A stretch of 21,013 nt of DNA from a virus. Positions 7,434-20,924 of this stretch are shown piece by piece. Location: IMG/VR virus record IMGVR_UViG_3300034071_002353, positions 1 to 21,013 of that record; one strand, given 5' to 3'. Within the stretch, counting starts at the first letter, position 1. Every line of letters begins with the position of its first letter. The position numbers and the translations under genes are program-made. The notes below the pieces were generated by a model. That model did not search any database, was not told the DNA's origin, and worked only from the letters and a program-made list of their open reading frames with translations.

Positions 7434-7457
7434 AAACCTCCTCTGGGAGGTTTTTTT
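7434..7457 (+). terminator. Intrinsic terminator closing the replication operon
   Basis: AACCTCC (7435-7441) pairs with GGAGGTT (7446-7452) around a TCTG loop, within a T run at 7451-7457. The last T of the run is the first base of the next late promoter, so one signal ends the early operon and the next starts the late region. Confidence 0.88.
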
Positions 7458-7464
7458 ATAAATA
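7457..7464 (+). promoter_or_regulatory. Late promoter for the 7485 gene
   Basis: An exact TATAAATA directly abuts the terminator T run. With a T4-like start the RNA begins near 7470, 15 bases before ATG 7485. In T4 such promoters need the phage sigma factor gp55 and the sliding clamp. Confidence 0.75.
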
Positions 7465-7484: not shown

Positions 7485-7964
7485 ATGAAAACTTTTTTGG
7501 AGTTTATTTCTGAAGCAGAGGTTGCCTGGAATACGGGCACTCTTAAAGGAAGTAAAAAAAGTCCCTCCGCTACTGCAAGTCAAAAAGTAACTCAACTGGG
7601 TAGGCAAATGACTAATCCCAGAACTACTCCTCAACAAATGGCATCAATTGCTCAAAGAGTAAAGAAAATGAAATCTGCCATTGTCGGTTCTGGGGAAGTT
7701 GCAAAGGCATCTGATCCTCGTCCAGAAAACAAAGATGCAGGAAGAACTAATACTAAAGTAAGAGGATATGCCTCAAAAGGAAAAGATGAACGAGGAAGGG
7801 TAGGTAGTCTGCGTGATATAGATTCGGGCAATCAACCTTCAGATGTTAGAACTTCTGGTAGATACGGCGATACAAGATCCAGATCTCAAGGAGGTGGAAG
7901 TGTTCCTACAAGAAATAAAGGACAAGGATATAGCACTCCTGAAAGATCTCACTATAGTAGATAA
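7485..7964 (+). CDS. Putative internal head protein with capsid-targeting peptide
   Basis: A 159-residue basic, low-complexity protein. Its first 11 residues, MKTFLEFISEA, match the capsid-targeting peptide of T4 internal proteins (MKTYQEFIAEA), which prohead protease gp21 cuts after the Glu of an [I/L]-x-E-A site; here that is ISE|A at residue 10. The remainder is rich in K, R, S, G and Q, with repeated SR/GR stretches toward the C-terminus, and looks unfolded and DNA-binding. The known T4 equivalents enter the capsid with DNA and are ejected into the host. It has its own late promoter and a poor Shine-Dalgarno sequence. No enzyme motif is visible. The targeting function is inferred from peptide similarity and late expression. 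Confidence 0.72.
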   Translation: MKTFLEFISEAEVAWNTGTLKGSKKSPSATASQKVTQLGRQMTNPRTTPQQMASIAQRVKKMKSAIVGSGEVAKASDPRPENKDAGRTNTKVRGYASKGKDERGRVGSLRDIDSGNQPSDVRTSGRYGDTRSRSQGGGSVPTRNKGQGYSTPERSHYSR

Positions 7965-9676: not shown

Positions 9677-9749
9677 GGGGATATAGCTCAGTTGGTAGAG
9701 CGCGGTCTTTGCAAGGCTGATGTCAGGAGTTCGAGTCTCCTTATCTCCA
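9677..9749 (+). tRNA. trnA-UGC: tRNA-Ala, anticodon UGC
   Basis: A 73-base cloverleaf. Acceptor GGGGATA (9677-9683) pairs with TATCTCC (9742-9748) with one G-U pair. The D arm is GCTC/GAGC. The anticodon arm CGGTC/GGCTG holds the loop TTTGCAA, so the anticodon is TGC (alanine). The T arm is AGGAG/CTCCT with loop TTCGAGT. The discriminator base is A. CCA is not encoded, so host nucleotidyltransferase must add it. The G-U and U-G pairs in the anticodon stem are unusual but acceptable. No promoter fits between the preceding terminator and the tRNA, so it probably relies on readthrough. Cyanophage tRNAs are thought to support AT-rich phage codon use. Confidence 0.95.
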
Positions 9750-9797: not shown

Positions 9798-11087
9798 ATG
9801 AAACGTTTCTTCCAATTTTTATCTGAAGCAAGAGAATCGCAGGCATCATTGCAAGCGAAAAAACTTGGTCTGGTTGGTGATGGTCATGGAGGATGGTTGG
9901 ATCGTGGTGGAAAACAAGTAGCAAGAACTGAAGGTGGGAAGTTAAAGTTTCTTGATGGTAGGCAAAAGTCCGCTCCAGAAGAAAAAGGTGCAAAACAAGC
10001 AACTGGTCCAGCATCAATGCCACAAGGACAACAAGCAGTCGCTCCAGTTTCACGCCCCCTTCCATCACAAGCATCTCCAGAAGAGCAAGAACCAGAGGAA
10101 AAACCAACTCTTACTATTGTATTGGGAAGGTTTAATCCGCCTACAATTGGACACGATAAAACATTTAATATTGCCAAAAAAGTTTCTGTTGGTGGCGACT
10201 TAAAAATATATCCATCAAGAACTCAAGATCCAAAGAAAAATCCATTGAATCCTGAAGTTAAAATTCAATACATGAGAATGATGTTCCCTGATTATTCTGA
10301 TAATATAATTGATGACCCTGATATGGAAAGTATTTTTGATGTATTAATTACTGCTTCTGAGGATGGGTATGGAACTGTAAATATTGTTTGTGGATCTGAT
10401 CGTCATGGTGAGTTTGAAAATTTATCTCAAAGATATAACAAAGAATTATATAATTTTGACTTGATTCGTGTTATATCTTCGGGAGTTAAGGATACTGAAG
10501 CTGAAGGGGCAATGGGAGTATCTTCTTCAAAAATGAGAAAAGCGGTGATTGATAATGATTTCTCAACATTTAGAAGAGGAACTCCTAAAACTCTCAGTAA
10601 CGCTGAAACTCAATCTCTGTTTGATCAAGTAAGACAGGGAATGAAAATTAAAAAAACAAAAACTCAAAAAGAAAATTATAACCTTTGGGAAATAGCTCCA
10701 AAACTTGATGTTCAAAATCTTCGTGAGAATTATATTTCTGGAAAAATATTCAATGTTGGAAATATTGTAGAAAATTTGAATACTGGATTGGTTGGAGAAG
10801 TCATACGTAGAGGGACTAATTATTTAATTTGTGTTACTAAAGAAGGTTATATGTTTAAGTCTTGGATCAAAGATTTAATGGAATATACTGAAGTTAAAAT
10901 GGATTCGCCGATGAGAGACAAAATTCATCCCAATACTCTTGTTGGAACTTTAGGTGCATTTAAACATTATGCAAAAATGACACCAGGTGTAATTGGAACA
11001 AATAGTCAATACCTTCAAAAAGGTGGTAAAGCATATGGAGTCAATTTTATAAATAAATATAAGGCAAAAAAAGCAAGCACTCGTTAA
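9798..11087 (+). CDS. Capsid-targeted nucleotidyltransferase-like protein
   Basis: A 429-residue fusion. Residues 1-11 (MKRFFQFLSEA) match the T4-type capsid-targeting peptide, with a candidate gp21 cut LSE|A at residue 10. Residues 21-58 carry a GDGHGGW module common in cyanophage virion-type proteins. A P/Q/E-rich linker follows (to about 104). Residues 105-275 form a cytidylyl/nicotinamide-nucleotide adenylyltransferase-type domain: GRFNPPTIGH (110-119), where T-x-G-H is the nucleotide-binding signature, SRTQDPKKNPL, CGSDRH, and SSSKMRKA (242-249), the ISSTxIR-like motif. The C-terminal part (about 300-429) contains FNVGNIVENLNTGLVGEVIR and a GGKAYG stretch seen in cyanophage proteins. Substrate is unknown; transfer of a nucleotide to NMN, a lipid head-group precursor or a protein is possible. 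It has late-type control. Confidence 0.8.
   Translation: MKRFFQFLSEARESQASLQAKKLGLVGDGHGGWLDRGGKQVARTEGGKLKFLDGRQKSAPEEKGAKQATGPASMPQGQQAVAPVSRPLPSQASPEEQEPEEKPTLTIVLGRFNPPTIGHDKTFNIAKKVSVGGDLKIYPSRTQDPKKNPLNPEVKIQYMRMMFPDYSDNIIDDPDMESIFDVLITASEDGYGTVNIVCGSDRHGEFENLSQRYNKELYNFDLIRVISSGVKDTEAEGAMGVSSSKMRKAVIDNDFSTFRRGTPKTLSNAETQSLFDQVRQGMKIKKTKTQKENYNLWEIAPKLDVQNLRENYISGKIFNVGNIVENLNTGLVGEVIRRGTNYLICVTKEGYMFKSWIKDLMEYTEVKMDSPMRDKIHPNTLVGTLGAFKHYAKMTPGVIGTNSQYLQKGGKAYGVNFINKYKAKKASTR
11048..11055 (+). promoter_or_regulatory. Late promoter inside the end of the 9798 gene
   Basis: An exact TATAAATA within the last codons of the upstream gene. The predicted start is near 11061, 28 bases before ATG 11089, so the next gene can be expressed separately although only one base separates the two reading frames. 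Confidence 0.65.
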
Positions 11088-13135: not shown

Positions 13136-13166
13136 AAGGAGACCGAAAGTAGGGTCTCCTTTTTTT
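13136..13166 (+). terminator. Intrinsic terminator after the 57-residue gene
   Basis: A perfect 9-bp stem AAGGAGACC (13136-13144) pairs with GGTCTCCTT (13153-13161), followed by T to 13166. As at 7457, the T run merges into the next TATAAATA. Confidence 0.92.
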
Positions 13167-13173
13167 ATAAATA
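13166..13173 (+). promoter_or_regulatory. Late promoter for the 13207 gene
   Basis: An exact TATAAATA begins on the last T of the terminator. The predicted start is near 13179, 28 bases before ATG 13207. Confidence 0.75.
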
Positions 13174-14938: not shown

Positions 14939-14966
14939 TTGACAAGACCCAGTAACCTGGTATAAT
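14939..14966 (+). promoter_or_regulatory. Consensus sigma70 early promoter for gp61-nrdA-nrdB
   Basis: TTGACA (14939-14944) and TATAAT (14961-14966) are both perfect, 16 bases apart, and TGG precedes the -10 box (extended -10). The predicted start near 14973 leaves a leader of about 22 bases to ATG 14995, with no Shine-Dalgarno sequence in it. This should be one of the strongest host-type promoters in the region. Confidence 0.88.
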
Positions 14967-14994: not shown

Positions 14995-15963
14995 ATGGAT
15001 TTTGTTGATGTTAAATACATCAATTTGATTTCTGTAAGATTTCAAAAATTTAAAAAGGTAAAGCATAATCTTTATAATTTTCGTTGCCCTATTTGCGGAG
15101 ATTCTCAAAAGAACAAAAATAAGGCAAGAGGATATCTTTACCAAGTAAAAAATAATACAAATTTCAAATGTCATAATTGTGGAATTAATATATCTTTCAA
15201 TAATTTTTTGAAGCAGATTGATACTTCTGTATATAAACAATATACTTTTGAGAAGTTTAAAGAGGGACACACGGGGAAAAATTTCACTGTAGATGAACCT
15301 GTATTTAAGTTTGAAGCACCTAAGTTCAACCCAAAATTAAATCTACCAAAAGCATCTACAAACCCTGACGCAAAAAAGTATTTGGAAAATAGAAAAATAA
15401 ATCCAGATAACTATTATTACGCCGAAAAATTTAAGGAGTGGACTAACTCTCTTCGCCAAACATTCGACAGCACAGATAAAGATGAACAAAGGATTATTAT
15501 TCCTTTGTTTTATCAAAATAATCTAGTCGGATTTCAGGGAAGAGCACTTGGTCCCAGCAAGGTCAAATACATCACTATAATGCTTGACGATGACGCACCA
15601 AAAATCTATGGTCTTGATAAAGTCCAAAAAAGTGAAACTGTCTACATCACCGAAGGTCCGTTCGATTCAACCTTCATTCGCAACGCAATTGCTTTGTGTG
15701 GAGCTGATGGTGATGTTACTAAGTGGGATATTCGTGATTGTGTTTGGATATACGATAACGAACCACGTAATTCAGAAATCCTATCAAGAATTTCCCGAGT
15801 TATCGAAGATGGACAAAAAGTTGTCATCTGGCCTTCAACAATAAAAGAAAAGGATATTAATGATATGGTTTTATCTGGACTTGATGTTCAGTCTGTGATA
15901 AAATTAAATACTTACTCTGGATTAGAAGCAAAACTTAAATTTACTACCTGGAAGAAAATATGA
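14995..15963 (+). CDS. 61: DNA primase (T4 gp61 type)
   Basis: A 322-residue primase (T4 gp61 is 342) that makes RNA primers for lagging-strand synthesis with helicase gp41. The N-terminal zinc ribbon is CPICGDS...CHNCG (C31, C34, C59, C62); KARG between the pairs also matches T4. The Toprim catalytic core follows: YITEGPFDST with E220, and WIYDNEPRN with D254 and E256 as the metal-binding acids. The start is supported by alignment with T4 gp61 from its N-terminus, although no ribosome site is visible before the ATG. The stop overlaps nrdA by four bases (ATGA). Confidence 0.94.
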   Translation: MDFVDVKYINLISVRFQKFKKVKHNLYNFRCPICGDSQKNKNKARGYLYQVKNNTNFKCHNCGINISFNNFLKQIDTSVYKQYTFEKFKEGHTGKNFTVDEPVFKFEAPKFNPKLNLPKASTNPDAKKYLENRKINPDNYYYAEKFKEWTNSLRQTFDSTDKDEQRIIIPLFYQNNLVGFQGRALGPSKVKYITIMLDDDAPKIYGLDKVQKSETVYITEGPFDSTFIRNAIALCGADGDVTKWDIRDCVWIYDNEPRNSEILSRISRVIEDGQKVVIWPSTIKEKDINDMVLSGLDVQSVIKLNTYSGLEAKLKFTTWKKI

Positions 15964-18260
15964 GCAACGGTACAAAGGTTAAAAAGCGTGATGGTCGAAT
16001 TGAGTCTCTTGACCTAGACAAGATGCATTTAATGGTCGAAGAGGCATGTAAGGGTCTTGCAGGCGTCTCTGCGAGTCAAGTTGAAATGACTTCTGGTATT
16101 CAATTTTATGATGGAATTACGACAGAAGAGATTCAAGAAATTTTGATTCGTTCTGCCAGCGATCTGATTGATTTGGACCATCCAAATTATCAGTATGTTG
16201 CTGCTCGCCTGCTTCTCTTTGCAGTTCGCAAGCAACTTTATGGGAAAATGAAAGAACTTCCCACCCTAGAACAACACATTTATCAGTGTGTTAATCATGA
16301 AGTATATGATAATGATATCTTTAACAAGTACTCTCAAGAAGAGATTGTACGTGCTGATAATTTTATTGATCATGATCGCGACTATCTCTTTACCTATGCA
16401 GGTCTACGACAAGTAGTTGATAAGTACCTTGTGCAAGATAGAAGTGGTGGTGGTGTATATGAAACACCACAGTTTATGTACATGATGATTGCTCTGACTA
16501 TCTTTGCAGAGTATCCAAAAGAAACACGTCTCTCCTATGTAAAGAGGTATTATGACGCAATCAGCAAGCACAAAATCAACATCCCCACACCAATCATGGC
16601 GGGAGTGCGAACTCCGCTTAGACAATTTGCTAGTTGTGTCCTTGTTGACGTTGATGACACCCTCGATAGTATCTTTAGTTCTGATATGGCTATTGGCCGA
16701 TACGTTGCACAGAGGGCGGGCATCGGCATCAACGCTGGTCGAATCCGTGGCATCAACAGTAAAATCAGAGGGGGAGAAGTTCAACACACGGGTGTTGTAC
16801 CATTTCTCAAGAAGTTTGAAGCAACTGTCAGATGTTGCACGCAAAATGGCATACGAGGTGGATCCGCGACAGTCCACTTCCCCATCTGGCACCAAGAAAT
16901 CGAAGACATCCTAGTTCTTAAAAACAATAAGGGTACGGAGGATAATCGTGTTCGTAAACTTGATTACAGCATTCAAATCAGCAAACTCTTCTATGAGAGG
17001 TTCATTCAGGATGGTGAGATCACGCTTTTCTCCCCTCATGATGTACCTGGACTTTATGATAGTTTTGGACTCCCTGAGTTTGACGCTCTCTACGTACAAT
17101 ATGAAAAAGATCCGTCCATTAAGAAAAAAACTGTTAAAGCGCAAGAACTCATCCTTAGTCTTCTTAAGGAACGTGCGGAAACGGGGCGCATCTACATTAT
17201 GAATATTGATCACTGCAATTCTCACTCTTCCTTTAAGGATAAAGTTGAGATGAGCAATCTTTGTCAGGAAATCACACTTCCAACATATCCTATTCAACAT
17301 ATCGATGATACAAGTGGTGAGATTGCATTGTGTATTCTTTCGGCAATTAATGTTGGTAAAGTAAAGTCTGATGAAGAACTTGAAGAACTCTGCGAACTTT
17401 CTGTTCGTGGTCTTGATGAGTTGATTGATTATCAAAAATACCCAGTAGAGGCAGCAGAAATCGCCACTAAGGCACGTCGCTCCCTTGGCATAGGATTTAT
17501 TGGTCTAGCACACTATTTGGCAAAACTTGGGTTTAATTATGATTCTCAGGAAGCTTGGGATGCAGTTCATGGACTTTCTGAGTCATTCCAATATTATCTT
17601 CTGAAAGCATCCAATCAACTTGCTAAGGAAAAGGGTTATTGTAAATACTTTGGTCGCACAAAATATTCTGATGGCATTCTTCCAGTTGATACTTATAAAA
17701 AAGACGTAGACGAAATTACTACTAACCAACTGCAACATGATTGGGAAAATCTTAGGACATCTATCCTGGAACACGGTCTCAGGCACTCAACATTGTCCGC
17801 ACAGATGCCATCGGAGAGCAGTTCCGTTGTGTCAAATGCAACCAATGGAATCGAACCTCCTCGTGGATTCTTGTCCGTTAAGAAGAGTAAAAAGGGACCG
17901 CTCAAACAGATTGTTCCGCAGTATCATGCCCTTAAGAACAATTATACGCTTCTTTGGGATATGCCTAGCAATCGTGGTTATATTAACATTGTTGCTGTGA
18001 TGCAAAAATTCTTTGACCAAGCGATTTCTGGGAACTGGTCTTATAATCCAGAAAATTATCCCGATAATGAAGTTCCCGTGTCAGTGATGGCGCACGATAT
18101 GCTTTACTCATATTCTGTTGGTTGGAAAACAAGTTATTATCAAAACACTTACGATATTAAAACCGACGAGGTAGTAGAAGAACCAAAACAAGACCTCCAA
18201 TCACTTCTTCAAGAACTTTCTGGTGCCGAAGAGGAAGATTGCGAAAGTTGTAAAATTTGA
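15960..18260 (+). CDS. nrdA: Ribonucleotide reductase, class Ia large subunit
   Basis: The 766-residue alpha subunit reduces ribonucleoside diphosphates to deoxy forms, supplying dNTPs for phage replication. An ATP-cone opens the protein (about 5-95: VKKRDGR, QFYDGI, YQYVAARL), so allosteric activity control is likely kept. Active-site residues matched to E. coli NrdA: C226 (225), S-N433-L-C435-Q-E437 (N437, C439, E441) and C458 (462). The YYQNT pair near the C-terminus supplies the radical-transfer tyrosines. The tail ends C761-ES-C764-KI; the shuttle cysteines are spaced C-x2-C, whereas from memory E. coli has C-x4-C. A GGAAG ribosome site precedes the ATG. The partner nrdB lies about 1.5 kb further on, separated by two inserted genes. 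The central part (about 16590-16910) is visibly richer in G and C than its surroundings. Confidence 0.97.
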   Translation: MSNGTKVKKRDGRIESLDLDKMHLMVEEACKGLAGVSASQVEMTSGIQFYDGITTEEIQEILIRSASDLIDLDHPNYQYVAARLLLFAVRKQLYGKMKELPTLEQHIYQCVNHEVYDNDIFNKYSQEEIVRADNFIDHDRDYLFTYAGLRQVVDKYLVQDRSGGGVYETPQFMYMMIALTIFAEYPKETRLSYVKRYYDAISKHKINIPTPIMAGVRTPLRQFASCVLVDVDDTLDSIFSSDMAIGRYVAQRAGIGINAGRIRGINSKIRGGEVQHTGVVPFLKKFEATVRCCTQNGIRGGSATVHFPIWHQEIEDILVLKNNKGTEDNRVRKLDYSIQISKLFYERFIQDGEITLFSPHDVPGLYDSFGLPEFDALYVQYEKDPSIKKKTVKAQELILSLLKERAETGRIYIMNIDHCNSHSSFKDKVEMSNLCQEITLPTYPIQHIDDTSGEIALCILSAINVGKVKSDEELEELCELSVRGLDELIDYQKYPVEAAEIATKARRSLGIGFIGLAHYLAKLGFNYDSQEAWDAVHGLSESFQYYLLKASNQLAKEKGYCKYFGRTKYSDGILPVDTYKKDVDEITTNQLQHDWENLRTSILEHGLRHSTLSAQMPSESSSVVSNATNGIEPPRGFLSVKKSKKGPLKQIVPQYHALKNNYTLLWDMPSNRGYINIVAVMQKFFDQAISGNWSYNPENYPDNEVPVSVMAHDMLYSYSVGWKTSYYQNTYDIKTDEVVEEPKQDLQSLLQELSGAEEEDCESCKI

Positions 18261-18269
18261 CGAAAGTGT

Positions 18270-18309
18270 AAAGACCTGTTATTATAAATAGTAATAGGTC
18301 TTTATTTTA
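18270..18309 (+). terminator. Long hairpin after nrdA with the late promoter in its loop
   Basis: Bases 18270-18284 pair with 18289-18303 over 15 bp with two G-U pairs and a TAAA loop. T-rich sequence follows (TTTATTTTAT), so it can act as a terminator of the nrdA transcript. In a readthrough transcript the 3' arm would also hide the AGG (18296-18298), the only Shine-Dalgarno-like bases before the next gene. Confidence 0.75.
18283..18290 (+). promoter_or_regulatory. Late promoter of the homing endonuclease gene
   Basis: An exact TATAAATA forms the loop and top of the 18270-18303 hairpin. A T4-like start falls at 18296, so late transcripts would lack the 5' arm and could not form the hairpin. 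Confidence 0.72.
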
Positions 18310-18313
18310 TCTT

Positions 18314-19003
18314 ATGGAAGGTCGCATTTACAAAATAACCAATCAAGTTAATGGTAAGTTTTATGTTGGTAAAACTATGAAATCTTTACCAACAAGGTTT
18401 TATAATCATTGTTATGATGCTATTAATAGAAATTCTACATCTTATTTCCATAGAGCAATAAGAAAATACGGCAAGGAAAATTTTATTATTGAAGAAATTG
18501 AATTATGTGAAGATAATTTAGGAAACAGAGAAATATTTTGGATTTCTAAATTAAATCCTCATTATAATCAAACTCTTGGTGGTGATGGTGGTATGCTTGG
18601 ATATTCTCATACAGAAAAAACGAGACAACTATTATCGTTAAAAAGAAAAGGTAAATTTCTTGGAGAAGAAAATCCATTCTATAATCAAACGCATACAAAA
18701 GAACAAAAAGAAAAATGGAGTAAAATGAGAAAAGGGCAACCATCTCCTTGTGGATTTGCTGGAAAATCTCATAAGGAGGAAAGTAAATCGAAAACTTCTC
18801 AAACACTTAAAAATAATCCAAATGTAAAAAGAACCAAAGTATTTCAGTATGATATTGAAGGAAACTTTTTAAGAGAGTTCCAATCTATTAGTGATGCTTC
18901 TAAATTTGTAGGAACAAATCCTTCCAACATTAAATATACCTGTGAAGGAAAATTTAACCATTGTAAAGGGTATAGATGGAGTTATGAAAAACTAAATACC
19001 TAA
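18314..19003 (+). CDS. GIY-YIG homing endonuclease, free-standing
   Basis: A 229-residue protein. The GIY-YIG nuclease domain occupies about 1-90: GRIYKITN (the GIY strand, Y6), FYVGKT (the YIG strand, 16-21), R28 in TRFYNH as the catalytic Arg, and E73 in REIFWI as the metal ligand. Two or three NUMOD3-like DNA-binding segments follow (GYSHTEKTRQLLSLKRKG, NQTHTKEQKEKWSKMRKG, GKSHKEESKSKTSQTL). The C-terminal helix-turn-helix of the NUMOD1/IENR1 type is VFQYDIEGNF...ISDASKFVG...GYRWSY. Such enzymes cut an allele lacking the gene and copy themselves in by recombination. It sits between nrdA and nrdB, the same junction that holds mobE in T4. The gene is AT-rich and all catalytic residues appear intact. 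Confidence 0.93.
   Translation: MEGRIYKITNQVNGKFYVGKTMKSLPTRFYNHCYDAINRNSTSYFHRAIRKYGKENFIIEEIELCEDNLGNREIFWISKLNPHYNQTLGGDGGMLGYSHTEKTRQLLSLKRKGKFLGEENPFYNQTHTKEQKEKWSKMRKGQPSPCGFAGKSHKEESKSKTSQTLKNNPNVKRTKVFQYDIEGNFLREFQSISDASKFVGTNPSNIKYTCEGKFNHCKGYRWSYEKLNT
18991..18998 (+). promoter_or_regulatory. Probable late element for the 19018 gene
   Basis: ACTAAATA shares the TAAATA core and lies at the end of the endonuclease gene. The predicted start is near 19004, 14 bases before ATG 19018, the same spacing as at 7457-7464. Confidence 0.42.
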
Positions 19004-19017
19004 AAGCAAAGTAAGAA

Positions 19018-19692
19018 ATGAAAACATTTCAAGAATTTATGTATATTGCAGAAAAATATTATGAACCTAATGAAAAACTTCCTTCTGGCAAAACTCCAAT
19101 GCAAAAAGCAAGTAATAAAAAATTTAAAGATAAACAACGACAAGAAAGACAAAGTAATTTAACTCTAACTAAAGTTAGACACGGGGCAGATAATCCAAAT
19201 CCAAATCCACATGTAAGTCGTAAAGATAAAAAGGAAGTAAAAGTAACATCTCATTCTAGTGGAATTGATGTTCACCATAAACCATCTGGAATTACATATA
19301 AAGTATATAAAACTCCAGAATCTCCTGCAAATAATATGAATACAATAGAATGGGGACATAATAAAACTCCAAAAACAAAAGGAGACAAAATTAAAATTGC
19401 AAGAGATGCGGAAAGAGTTTGGAATAGACATGTATCTCATCGCCTACCTCATAATACAGTAGCACATAATAGTCCTTTAAGTTCGGGATCAGATGATTTA
19501 GGAAATGAACATAGAAATCGTAGAGAAAGATTGTATTCTAAACGAGGTGGATTTGGACCAAAAGATTCTGAAGGCGATCAATTTGCAAAAGTAGGAAGAA
19601 ATCCATCTCGCAAACAACAAGAAAAAGGTAAAAAAAGACTTTCGCCAATTGAACCGAAACATTTGCATCGTCATACTCAATATGATGAATAA
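19018..19692 (+). CDS. Putative internal head protein with targeting-like N-terminus
   Basis: A 224-residue very basic protein. The first seven residues (MKTFQEF) match the capsid-targeting peptide of T4 internal proteins; the expected cut site is shifted and imperfect (IAE|K at 10-13), so removal by gp21 is less certain than for the 7485 and 9798 products. The body is hydrophilic and rich in K, R, N, H and P. A segment at about 85-125 (SGIDVHHKPSGITYKVYKTP) could fold, followed by RDAERVWNRHVSHRLPHNT and a long basic tail with a HLHRH stretch. No catalytic motif is obvious. It lies between nrdA and nrdB although its type is late, so it looks like an insertion, perhaps carried with the endonuclease gene. 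Confidence 0.72.
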   Translation: MKTFQEFMYIAEKYYEPNEKLPSGKTPMQKASNKKFKDKQRQERQSNLTLTKVRHGADNPNPNPHVSRKDKKEVKVTSHSSGIDVHHKPSGITYKVYKTPESPANNMNTIEWGHNKTPKTKGDKIKIARDAERVWNRHVSHRLPHNTVAHNSPLSSGSDDLGNEHRNRRERLYSKRGGFGPKDSEGDQFAKVGRNPSRKQQEKGKKRLSPIEPKHLHRHTQYDE

Positions 19693-19745: not shown

Positions 19746-20924
19746 ATGCAGTTTAAAATTTCTTCAACAGAAGAATCTACAAATATTAAGGGAATGACAG
19801 TTTTTAACACCGAAAAAGTAGATACCAAAAAGCAACCTATGTTTTTTGGAAAACCTCTTGGAGTTCAGAGATACGATTCATACAAGTACCCAATTTTTGA
19901 TAAACTAACTACTCAGCAACTTGGATACTTCTGGAGGCCCGAAGAGGTGTCTCTTCAGAAGGATCGTGGAGATTATCAAACTCTTCGCCCAGAACAGAAG
20001 CACATCTATACATCTAATTTGAAGTATCAGATCATGCTTGACTCTGTTCAGGGTCGTGGTCCTGGTATGGCATTTATTCCATACTGCTCACTTCCTGAAC
20101 TGGAAGCGTGTATGGAAGTATGGGGATTTATGGAGATGATCCATAGTCGCTCATACACATATATTATCAAAAACATTTATTCCGATCCTTCTGAGGTCTT
20201 TGATACAATCATTGGTGATGAACGCATTCTGGAACGTGCCAAGAGCGTTACAGAGTCATATGATGACTTCATTCAATCTGCACAACAGTATGGTGTATCC
20301 GATGCTTGGATGCATAATCTTGAAGGAGTTTCATACGCTAAGGAAACAGTAAATGACGTTAAAAGAAAACTGTACAGAGCAGTCGCCAACGTTAACATTC
20401 TTGAAGGTATTCGCTTCTACGTTAGTTTTGCTTGTAGTTTCGCCTTTGGTGAACTTAAGCTTATGGAAGGATCCGCTAAGATCATCTCTCTTATCGCAAG
20501 AGACGAAAATCAACACTTAGCACTTACTCAGAATATTCTGAATAAGTGGAGAGAGGGTGATGATCCAGAAATGCAAAAGATTATGAAGGAAGAAGAAGAG
20601 TGGACTTATAAAATGTTTGATCGTGCTGTAAATGAAGAAAAGAAATGGGCAGATTATCTGTTCAAAGATGGCAGCATGATTGGATTGAATGATAAACTTC
20701 TTCAGCAATACGTTGAATGGGTGGCAAATAGAAGACTTAAAGCAATTGGACTAAAACCCCAATACGATATTTCAGCAAACAATAATCCACTTCCTTGGAC
20801 TCAGCACTGGATCTCTTCTAAAGGTCTCCAGGTGGCACCGCAGGAAACGGAAGTAGAATCCTACGTTGTAGGAGGAATCAAACAAGATGTTACCAAAAAT
20901 ACTTTCTCAGGATTCAAACTATGA
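19746..20924 (+). CDS. nrdB: Ribonucleotide reductase, class Ia small subunit
   Basis: The 392-residue beta subunit houses the di-iron centre and tyrosyl radical that start catalysis in NrdA. Ligands by comparison with E. coli NrdB: D99 (in LDSVQGR), E130 and H133 (EMIHSRSY), E220 (LEGIRFYVSFAC), E254 and H257 (RDENQH). The radical Tyr is Y137. All are present, so it should be active. The C-terminal tail (FSGFKL) that binds NrdA is present. The start at 19746 is chosen because AAAAGGA (19732-19738) lies 7 bases before it; starts at 19707 and 19728 lack a site. The protein is about 16 residues longer at its N-terminus than E. coli NrdB. It is separated from nrdA by two genes, and no promoter of the strong early type is visible between them. 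Confidence 0.96.
   Translation: MQFKISSTEESTNIKGMTVFNTEKVDTKKQPMFFGKPLGVQRYDSYKYPIFDKLTTQQLGYFWRPEEVSLQKDRGDYQTLRPEQKHIYTSNLKYQIMLDSVQGRGPGMAFIPYCSLPELEACMEVWGFMEMIHSRSYTYIIKNIYSDPSEVFDTIIGDERILERAKSVTESYDDFIQSAQQYGVSDAWMHNLEGVSYAKETVNDVKRKLYRAVANVNILEGIRFYVSFACSFAFGELKLMEGSAKIISLIARDENQHLALTQNILNKWREGDDPEMQKIMKEEEEWTYKMFDRAVNEEKKWADYLFKDGSMIGLNDKLLQQYVEWVANRRLKAIGLKPQYDISANNNPLPWTQHWISSKGLQVAPQETEVESYVVGGIKQDVTKNTFSGFKL

Follow-up and report, generated by a model that had tools for sequence, protein, structure and literature searches.

A late-promoter octamer in the loop of a conserved hairpin: a candidate combined silencer and promoter of an endonuclease gene in a T4-like cyanophage

How could a free-standing endonuclease gene be kept silent in RNA that reads into it from an upstream gene, and still be translated late in infection? 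The question is raised by a gene that lies between nrdA and nrdB in a T4-like cyanophage, ahead of which a late-promoter octamer sits in the loop of a long hairpin. An earlier note on this DNA had proposed that a transcript from nrdA would fold the hairpin, either ending there or hiding an AGG, and that a late transcript would escape it. Here we compare the locus with its relatives and weigh this proposal against other explanations.

The nrdA-nrdB junction and its hairpin

The window, by which we mean the whole 21-kb stretch of DNA that was analysed, is a piece of a T4-like cyanophage, with Synechococcus phages such as S-SRM01 and DSL-LC03 (Kyanoviridae) as its best annotated relatives. The features at the junction are as follows.

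15960-18260, plus strand: nrdA, recognised by its Pfam domains of the ribonucleotide reductase large chain; it lies upstream, and its transcript would run on through the hairpin
18257-18285, plus strand: sigma-70-like match TTGACG-17-TATTAT (10/12), an alternative promoter reading
18268-18284, plus strand: 5' arm of the hairpin, from the fold and pair counts
18283-18290, plus strand: late-promoter octamer TATAAATA, an exact match, spanning the loop together with the two pairs that close it on either side
18289-18305, plus strand: 3' arm of the hairpin, from the fold and pair counts
18296-18313, plus strand: predicted late leader, from the octamer position (start about 6 nt past the octamer, T4 rule)
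18314-19003, plus strand: free-standing GIY-YIG endonuclease gene with NUMOD3 and NUMOD1 (Pfam, PHROGs)
19018-19692, plus strand: gene starting MKTFQEFM, next after the endonuclease gene
19746-20924, plus strand: nrdB, from its ORF and similarity to annotated relatives; start MQFKISS, with 19728 also possible

The nrdA gene is uninterrupted and reads through to its stop, 53 nt ahead of the endonuclease ATG on the same strand. The endonuclease gene encodes a product of 229 aa, in which Pfam recognised a GIY-YIG domain (PF01541, E 5.8e-8) as well as the NUMOD3 and NUMOD1 domains; PHROGs assigned it to phrog_314, homing endonuclease, and by these family matches it is putatively of the homing-endonuclease type. 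A group I intron as its setting was rejected, as no group I intron family was found in an Rfam scan of the window. The following gene had no family match in Pfam or PHROGs; its start, MKTFQEFM, presumably resembles T4 capsid-targeting leaders, and it is possibly a late gene sharing the promoter of the endonuclease gene. In two related loci (L037, 3704; L065, 3703) ORFs starting MKTFQEFIAEA lie directly 3' of the endonuclease gene and give weak, below-cut-off ADP-ribosyltransferase matches (PARP E 0.13, ART-PolyVal E 0.012); it is possible that they encode capsid-delivered enzymes. Elsewhere in the window the genes at 7485 and 9798 start with MKTFLEFISEA and MKRFFQFLSEA, which we likewise take to resemble T4 capsid-targeting leaders, and the former is preceded by TATAAATA.

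The pairing of 18270-18284 with 18289-18303, including two G-U pairs, which the earlier note had described, proved exact, and two further pairs (18269-18304, U-A; 18268-18305, G-U) extend the stem to 17 pairs closing a 4-nt loop, TAAA, at 18285-18288. At most three of the pairs are G-C. The late motif claimed for the loop region is likewise present, covering the whole loop and standing 23 nt ahead of the endonuclease ATG; the reported cyanophage late motif is NATAAATA (PMC2984593). The octamer itself is partly self-complementary. The RNA fold has a z of -3.9, with equal stability in 0 of 200 dinucleotide shuffles, and when the octamer was fixed and its 40-nt flanks were shuffled a contiguous stem of at least 17 pairs arose in 7 of 200,000 cases (3.5e-5). 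The window contains six octamers against 1.7 expected, all of them on the plus strand, and only the one at 18283-18290 has a long enclosing stem.

The base of the hairpin lies 8 nt ahead of the start codon, and the AUG is outside the stem. The AGG at 18296-18298 is indeed paired within the stem, as had been claimed, but the 15 nt that separate it from the ATG at 18314 are too many for an ordinary Shine-Dalgarno sequence, and none was seen at normal spacing ahead of this ATG.

Conservation and covariation among relatives

A search of IMG/VR at the protein level yielded 80 loci, to which the leader pattern added a few, so that the compared set comprised the window and 83 loci (n=84) with 31 distinct 54-nt leaders. 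The stem core is kept in all 84 sequences and the exact octamer in 83, the exception (L016) carrying TATAAACA; the octamer-to-ATG spacing is 22 or 23 nt throughout (84/84). Relatives with the promoter and without the pairing, which the earlier note had named as evidence against its proposal, were looked for in this set and none was encountered. In 48 loci aligned without gaps, the 24-nt core is 97% identical, compared with 66% at third positions of the endonuclease gene and 58% at those of nrdA.

The covariation that the earlier note suggested looking for in related phages was found. The stem varies compensatorily: among 22 distinct sequences 95.7% of cells are paired and four pairs have changes on both sides, most of these two-sided changes being single cells. 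When the arms were slid by 1-3 columns, 37-61% of cells remained paired, a control that favours the structure on this measure because the structure was derived from the same sequences. G-U accounts for 75 cells of the stem compared with 6 for A-C, and strict Watson-Crick pairing reaches 81% compared with 96% for coding-strand RNA; it is therefore the RNA of the coding strand that is kept.

The endonuclease gene is variably present, and nrdA-nrdB junctions without it exist, many of which have the start of nrdB within the last nrdA codons. The first 95 nt at nrdA ends without the gene (most of L160-L236) contained neither such a stem nor the exact octamer, so that both travel with the endonuclease gene. 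A pattern scan of IMG/VR for the leader returned 81 stretches, and the four outside known endonuclease loci were inspected. Occurrence of the leader elsewhere without the gene was rejected, as all four have the same leader between nrdA and a gene of the same kind (L116 ends just past the start codon; L151 was judged from DNA only).

Other genes were observed at this junction. A different, NUMOD3/HNH-like gene is located there in L160, L191 and L295-L300; its AUG is buried by a hairpin of about 14-15 pairs in L295, L296, L297 and L300, with no exact TATAAATA, and the hairpin in L300 shows an apparently compensatory change from G-C to A-U. The nrdA gene of L006 (1-2947) is divided by an apparent split intein (NLC/VAGDTLIS... 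and ...NDILVHN/CQEI), an arrangement that we take to resemble 'fractured genes'. Another GIY-YIG gene, with its own octamer-hairpin ahead, lies between the halves, and this second junction is also found in L007, L010, L041, L053, L054, L065, L209 and others.

Proposed silencing and late expression of the endonuclease gene

We propose, with a probability of roughly 0.77, that the element acts as silencer and promoter in one for the homing-endonuclease-type gene that this T4-like cyanophage carries between nrdA and nrdB. RNA reading through from nrdA would fold 18268-18305 into the 17-bp hairpin, which would block the 30S subunit and so keep early translation of the endonuclease low. Later in the infection TATAAATA in the loop would be used by the late sigma factor of the phage, transcription would start near 18296, the 5' arm would be absent from the RNA and the open 18-nt leader would then be translated. 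The position of the octamer fits such a start, which would exclude the 5' arm. Octamer usage, the position and timing of the start, repression of translation and homing are steps that we infer. The core logic, a read-through hairpin and a late start beyond its 5' arm, is supported by the retention of octamer, stem and spacing, by compensatory changes, by pairing on the coding strand only, by the absence of both elements from empty sites and by modelled ribosome access. This part of the earlier proposal holds up better than Shine-Dalgarno hiding, termination and novelty.

In the modelling, late RNA began 6 nt past the octamer. In read-through RNA the predicted cost of opening the ribosome footprint from -18 to +13 is 18.7 kcal/mol, compared with 4.9 in late RNA, and opening was easier in the late RNA of all 40 distinct loci (40/40). 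The modelled gap is small for the footprint from -8 to +13 (6.6 vs 4.6), and taken by itself the AUG does not become more accessible in the late RNA of the window (unpaired 0.23 vs 0.5-0.8 in read-through RNA); the proposed block would therefore act on the upstream landing zone. Given the poor spacing of the AGG, occlusion of the 30S landing zone is more likely than hiding of a Shine-Dalgarno sequence.

Rather than silencing translation, the hairpin might mainly be an intrinsic terminator for nrdA, with the late promoter restarting transcription for the endonuclease gene and the next one. The window has a suitable U-rich tail, TTTATTTTATCTT, and terminators directly ahead of the octamer are common in these phages. 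A simple scan also scores the hairpin as terminator-like, but the same scan finds equally many such sites in shuffles. In many relatives the tail is TTTTAATAATTCTT or broken, unlike the GC-rich stems at 7435 and 13136 with their T5 or more, and the pairing of a GC-rich stem with a conserved U tract that marks an intrinsic terminator is not seen here. Other octamer-hairpins lack a U tract altogether, and the sister hairpin of L006 stands inside the split nrdA, ahead of its second half. With a GC-poor stem, an unconserved U tract and nrdB downstream, ending of read-through at the hairpin, as claimed earlier, is the weaker branch, and we consider this explanation unlikely. GC-rich terminators whose T run passes straight into TATAAATA were noted at 7435-7464 and 13136-13173 of the window, and a terminator just ahead of the octamer at 23 of 114 octamers in eight records.

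It is less probable still that host RNA polymerase starts at the overlapping sigma-70-type sequence, which would make the gene early or constitutive, with a transcript that again lacks the 5' arm. The match has TG ahead of its second hexamer, TTGAC occurs in 34 of 43 distinct leaders of relatives, and overlapping early and late promoters have been reported for cyanophages (PMC2984593). However, TTGAC is partly the stop codon region of nrdA, the nine leaders that lack it keep octamer and stem, and sigma-70-type matches in the region are no more frequent than by chance (29 vs 25 in shuffles). A 12/12 match, TTGACA-16-TATAAT with TG ahead of the second hexamer, was observed at 14939-14966, 28 nt ahead of an ORF at 14995.

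Alternatively, the repeat could work at the DNA level, forming a cruciform at the promoter or serving there as a palindromic operator, for example in self-repression of the kind seen with I-TevI. The centre of the palindrome is the promoter, and I-TevI is reported to repress its own late promoter (PMC2988022), yet the G-U bias described above disfavours pairing at the level of DNA, and we regard this as very improbable. An operator resembling the homing site was rejected, as resemblance to nrdA or nrdB did not exceed that of shuffles. Chance folding of an AT-rich spacer, which the partial self-complementarity of the octamer would suit, is hardly credible in view of the stem probability of about 3.5e-5, conservation far above that of neutral sites, compensatory changes and recurrence in other families.

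The mechanism of combined silencing and late promotion is the one already known from T4, and the window gene adds a case, not a new class, since similar designs of promoter and RNA structure are described for T4 I-TevI, II and III, segB and Aeh1 mobE (PMC2988022), and for T4 gene e. In the T4 intron endonuclease genes, too, a stable stem forms in read-through RNA of the early and middle periods, and the late promoter of I-TevI is so positioned that late RNA cannot form the stem. Genes of the I-TevI type are intron-encoded, whereas the window gene is free-standing, and their stem holds a consensus Shine-Dalgarno about 8 nt from the AUG, where the window has no normally spaced one. The novelty claimed for a free-standing GIY-YIG gene is forestalled by segB (GIY-YIG) and mobE (HNH), which are listed as free-standing endonuclease genes with a similar arrangement (PMC2988022), mobE also being tied to ribonucleotide reductase genes. 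These belong to other phages and encode other proteins; in contrast to them, the window octamer has the apical loop at its centre, and covariation of the stem extends over many relatives. T4 gene e (lysozyme), for which about 100-fold repression by a leader stem is reported, has late promoters in the 5'-strand region of the silencing stem, so that promoter and silencer are again fused, but involves no endonuclease gene (PMC3014915). In Aeromonas phage 25 a stem of great stability adjoins the ribosome site of seg43 (segD-like) on its upstream side without covering it; the window differs by its late octamer in the loop, and the effect of the seg43 stem on translation was left undetermined (PMC2988022). 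For psbA of S-PM2d, which also has a late promoter, a hairpin in the 5' UTR has been predicted (PMC5931967). The literature searched, which included few subscription papers, contained no report of a hairpin-promoter design on cyanophage endonucleases, so that this absence is weak evidence. With the present locus, a T4 regulatory trick known for few genes would extend to cyanophages of marine and freshwater hosts, and natural covariation becomes available for this type of hairpin silencing.

Recurrence on other endonuclease-like genes

Ten long cyanophage records were scanned for recurrence, the window and nine others (S-SRM01 minus its last 842 bases). A strict no-bulge stem scan missed hairpins with internal loops and an unconstrained fold scan served for finding candidates only; 153 distinct octamer sites were instead folded with only enclosing stems allowed. 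Downstream ORFs were clustered and most representatives scanned with Pfam, some with PHROGs; the representatives left over, and the ORFs in mixed clusters, were assigned to classes from their similarity and by inspection. A stem counted as significant at 2 or fewer of 200 shuffles and an E of -10 or lower.

Significant enclosing stems were found at 9 of 31 octamers ahead of endonuclease-like genes, a class that rests on family matches, vs 0 of 87 others (p=2e-6), five of the ten records having been chosen on the window's family. Leaving this family out, the counts are 5/27 vs 0/87 (p=0.0006; family level p=0.002); all these p values ignore that thresholds were set after the ranked list was seen and that some records are related. 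At a looser cut-off 18 of the 31 endonuclease-like genes have the octamer but no hairpin, several of them with a terminator just ahead of the octamer. The same layout was found beside or inside nrd genes in further families, whose products start with MYYVY, MNNYIL, M(K/R)(S/T)YIVYKITN and MSWRYNENEF. MYYVY leaders, judged by eye, contain changes on both sides of the stem (caaactg/cagtttg, caacctg/caggttg, gaaactg/cagtttc). The stem of these other octamer-hairpins often extends to the AUG, with no U tract after it. At 126148 of S-SRM01 (MW015081.1) lies a perfect 20-pair hairpin whose loop carries the octamer and whose 3' arm includes the start codon of the next gene, located at 126172 and annotated as recombination endonuclease VII. 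In DSL-LC03 an octamer-hairpin stands ahead of an HNH gene at 40846.

We lean towards the view that the hairpin-enclosed late promoter recurs as a module on free-standing endonuclease genes in T4-like cyanophages, having arisen or been acquired separately in several families (GIY-YIG/NUMOD, SegE-type, HNH, endonuclease VII-like), and that genes without the module are often shielded by a distinct terminator. Such recurrence of octamer-hairpins, of which the literature searched holds no description, is possibly new, and its spread over several endonuclease families suggests selection for nuclease silence until late. If true, the module would serve as a mark by which mobile endonucleases could be found, and selfish genes would have adapted repeatedly to phage timing. 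An octamer in a loop is a simple sequence signature that can be tested in isolates with sequenced genomes, for example S-SRM01 and DSL-LC03. In the window itself, a tRNA gene at 9677-9749 (Rfam) is followed directly by a late-like octamer, CATAAATA, and then by the cytidyltransferase gene at 9798.
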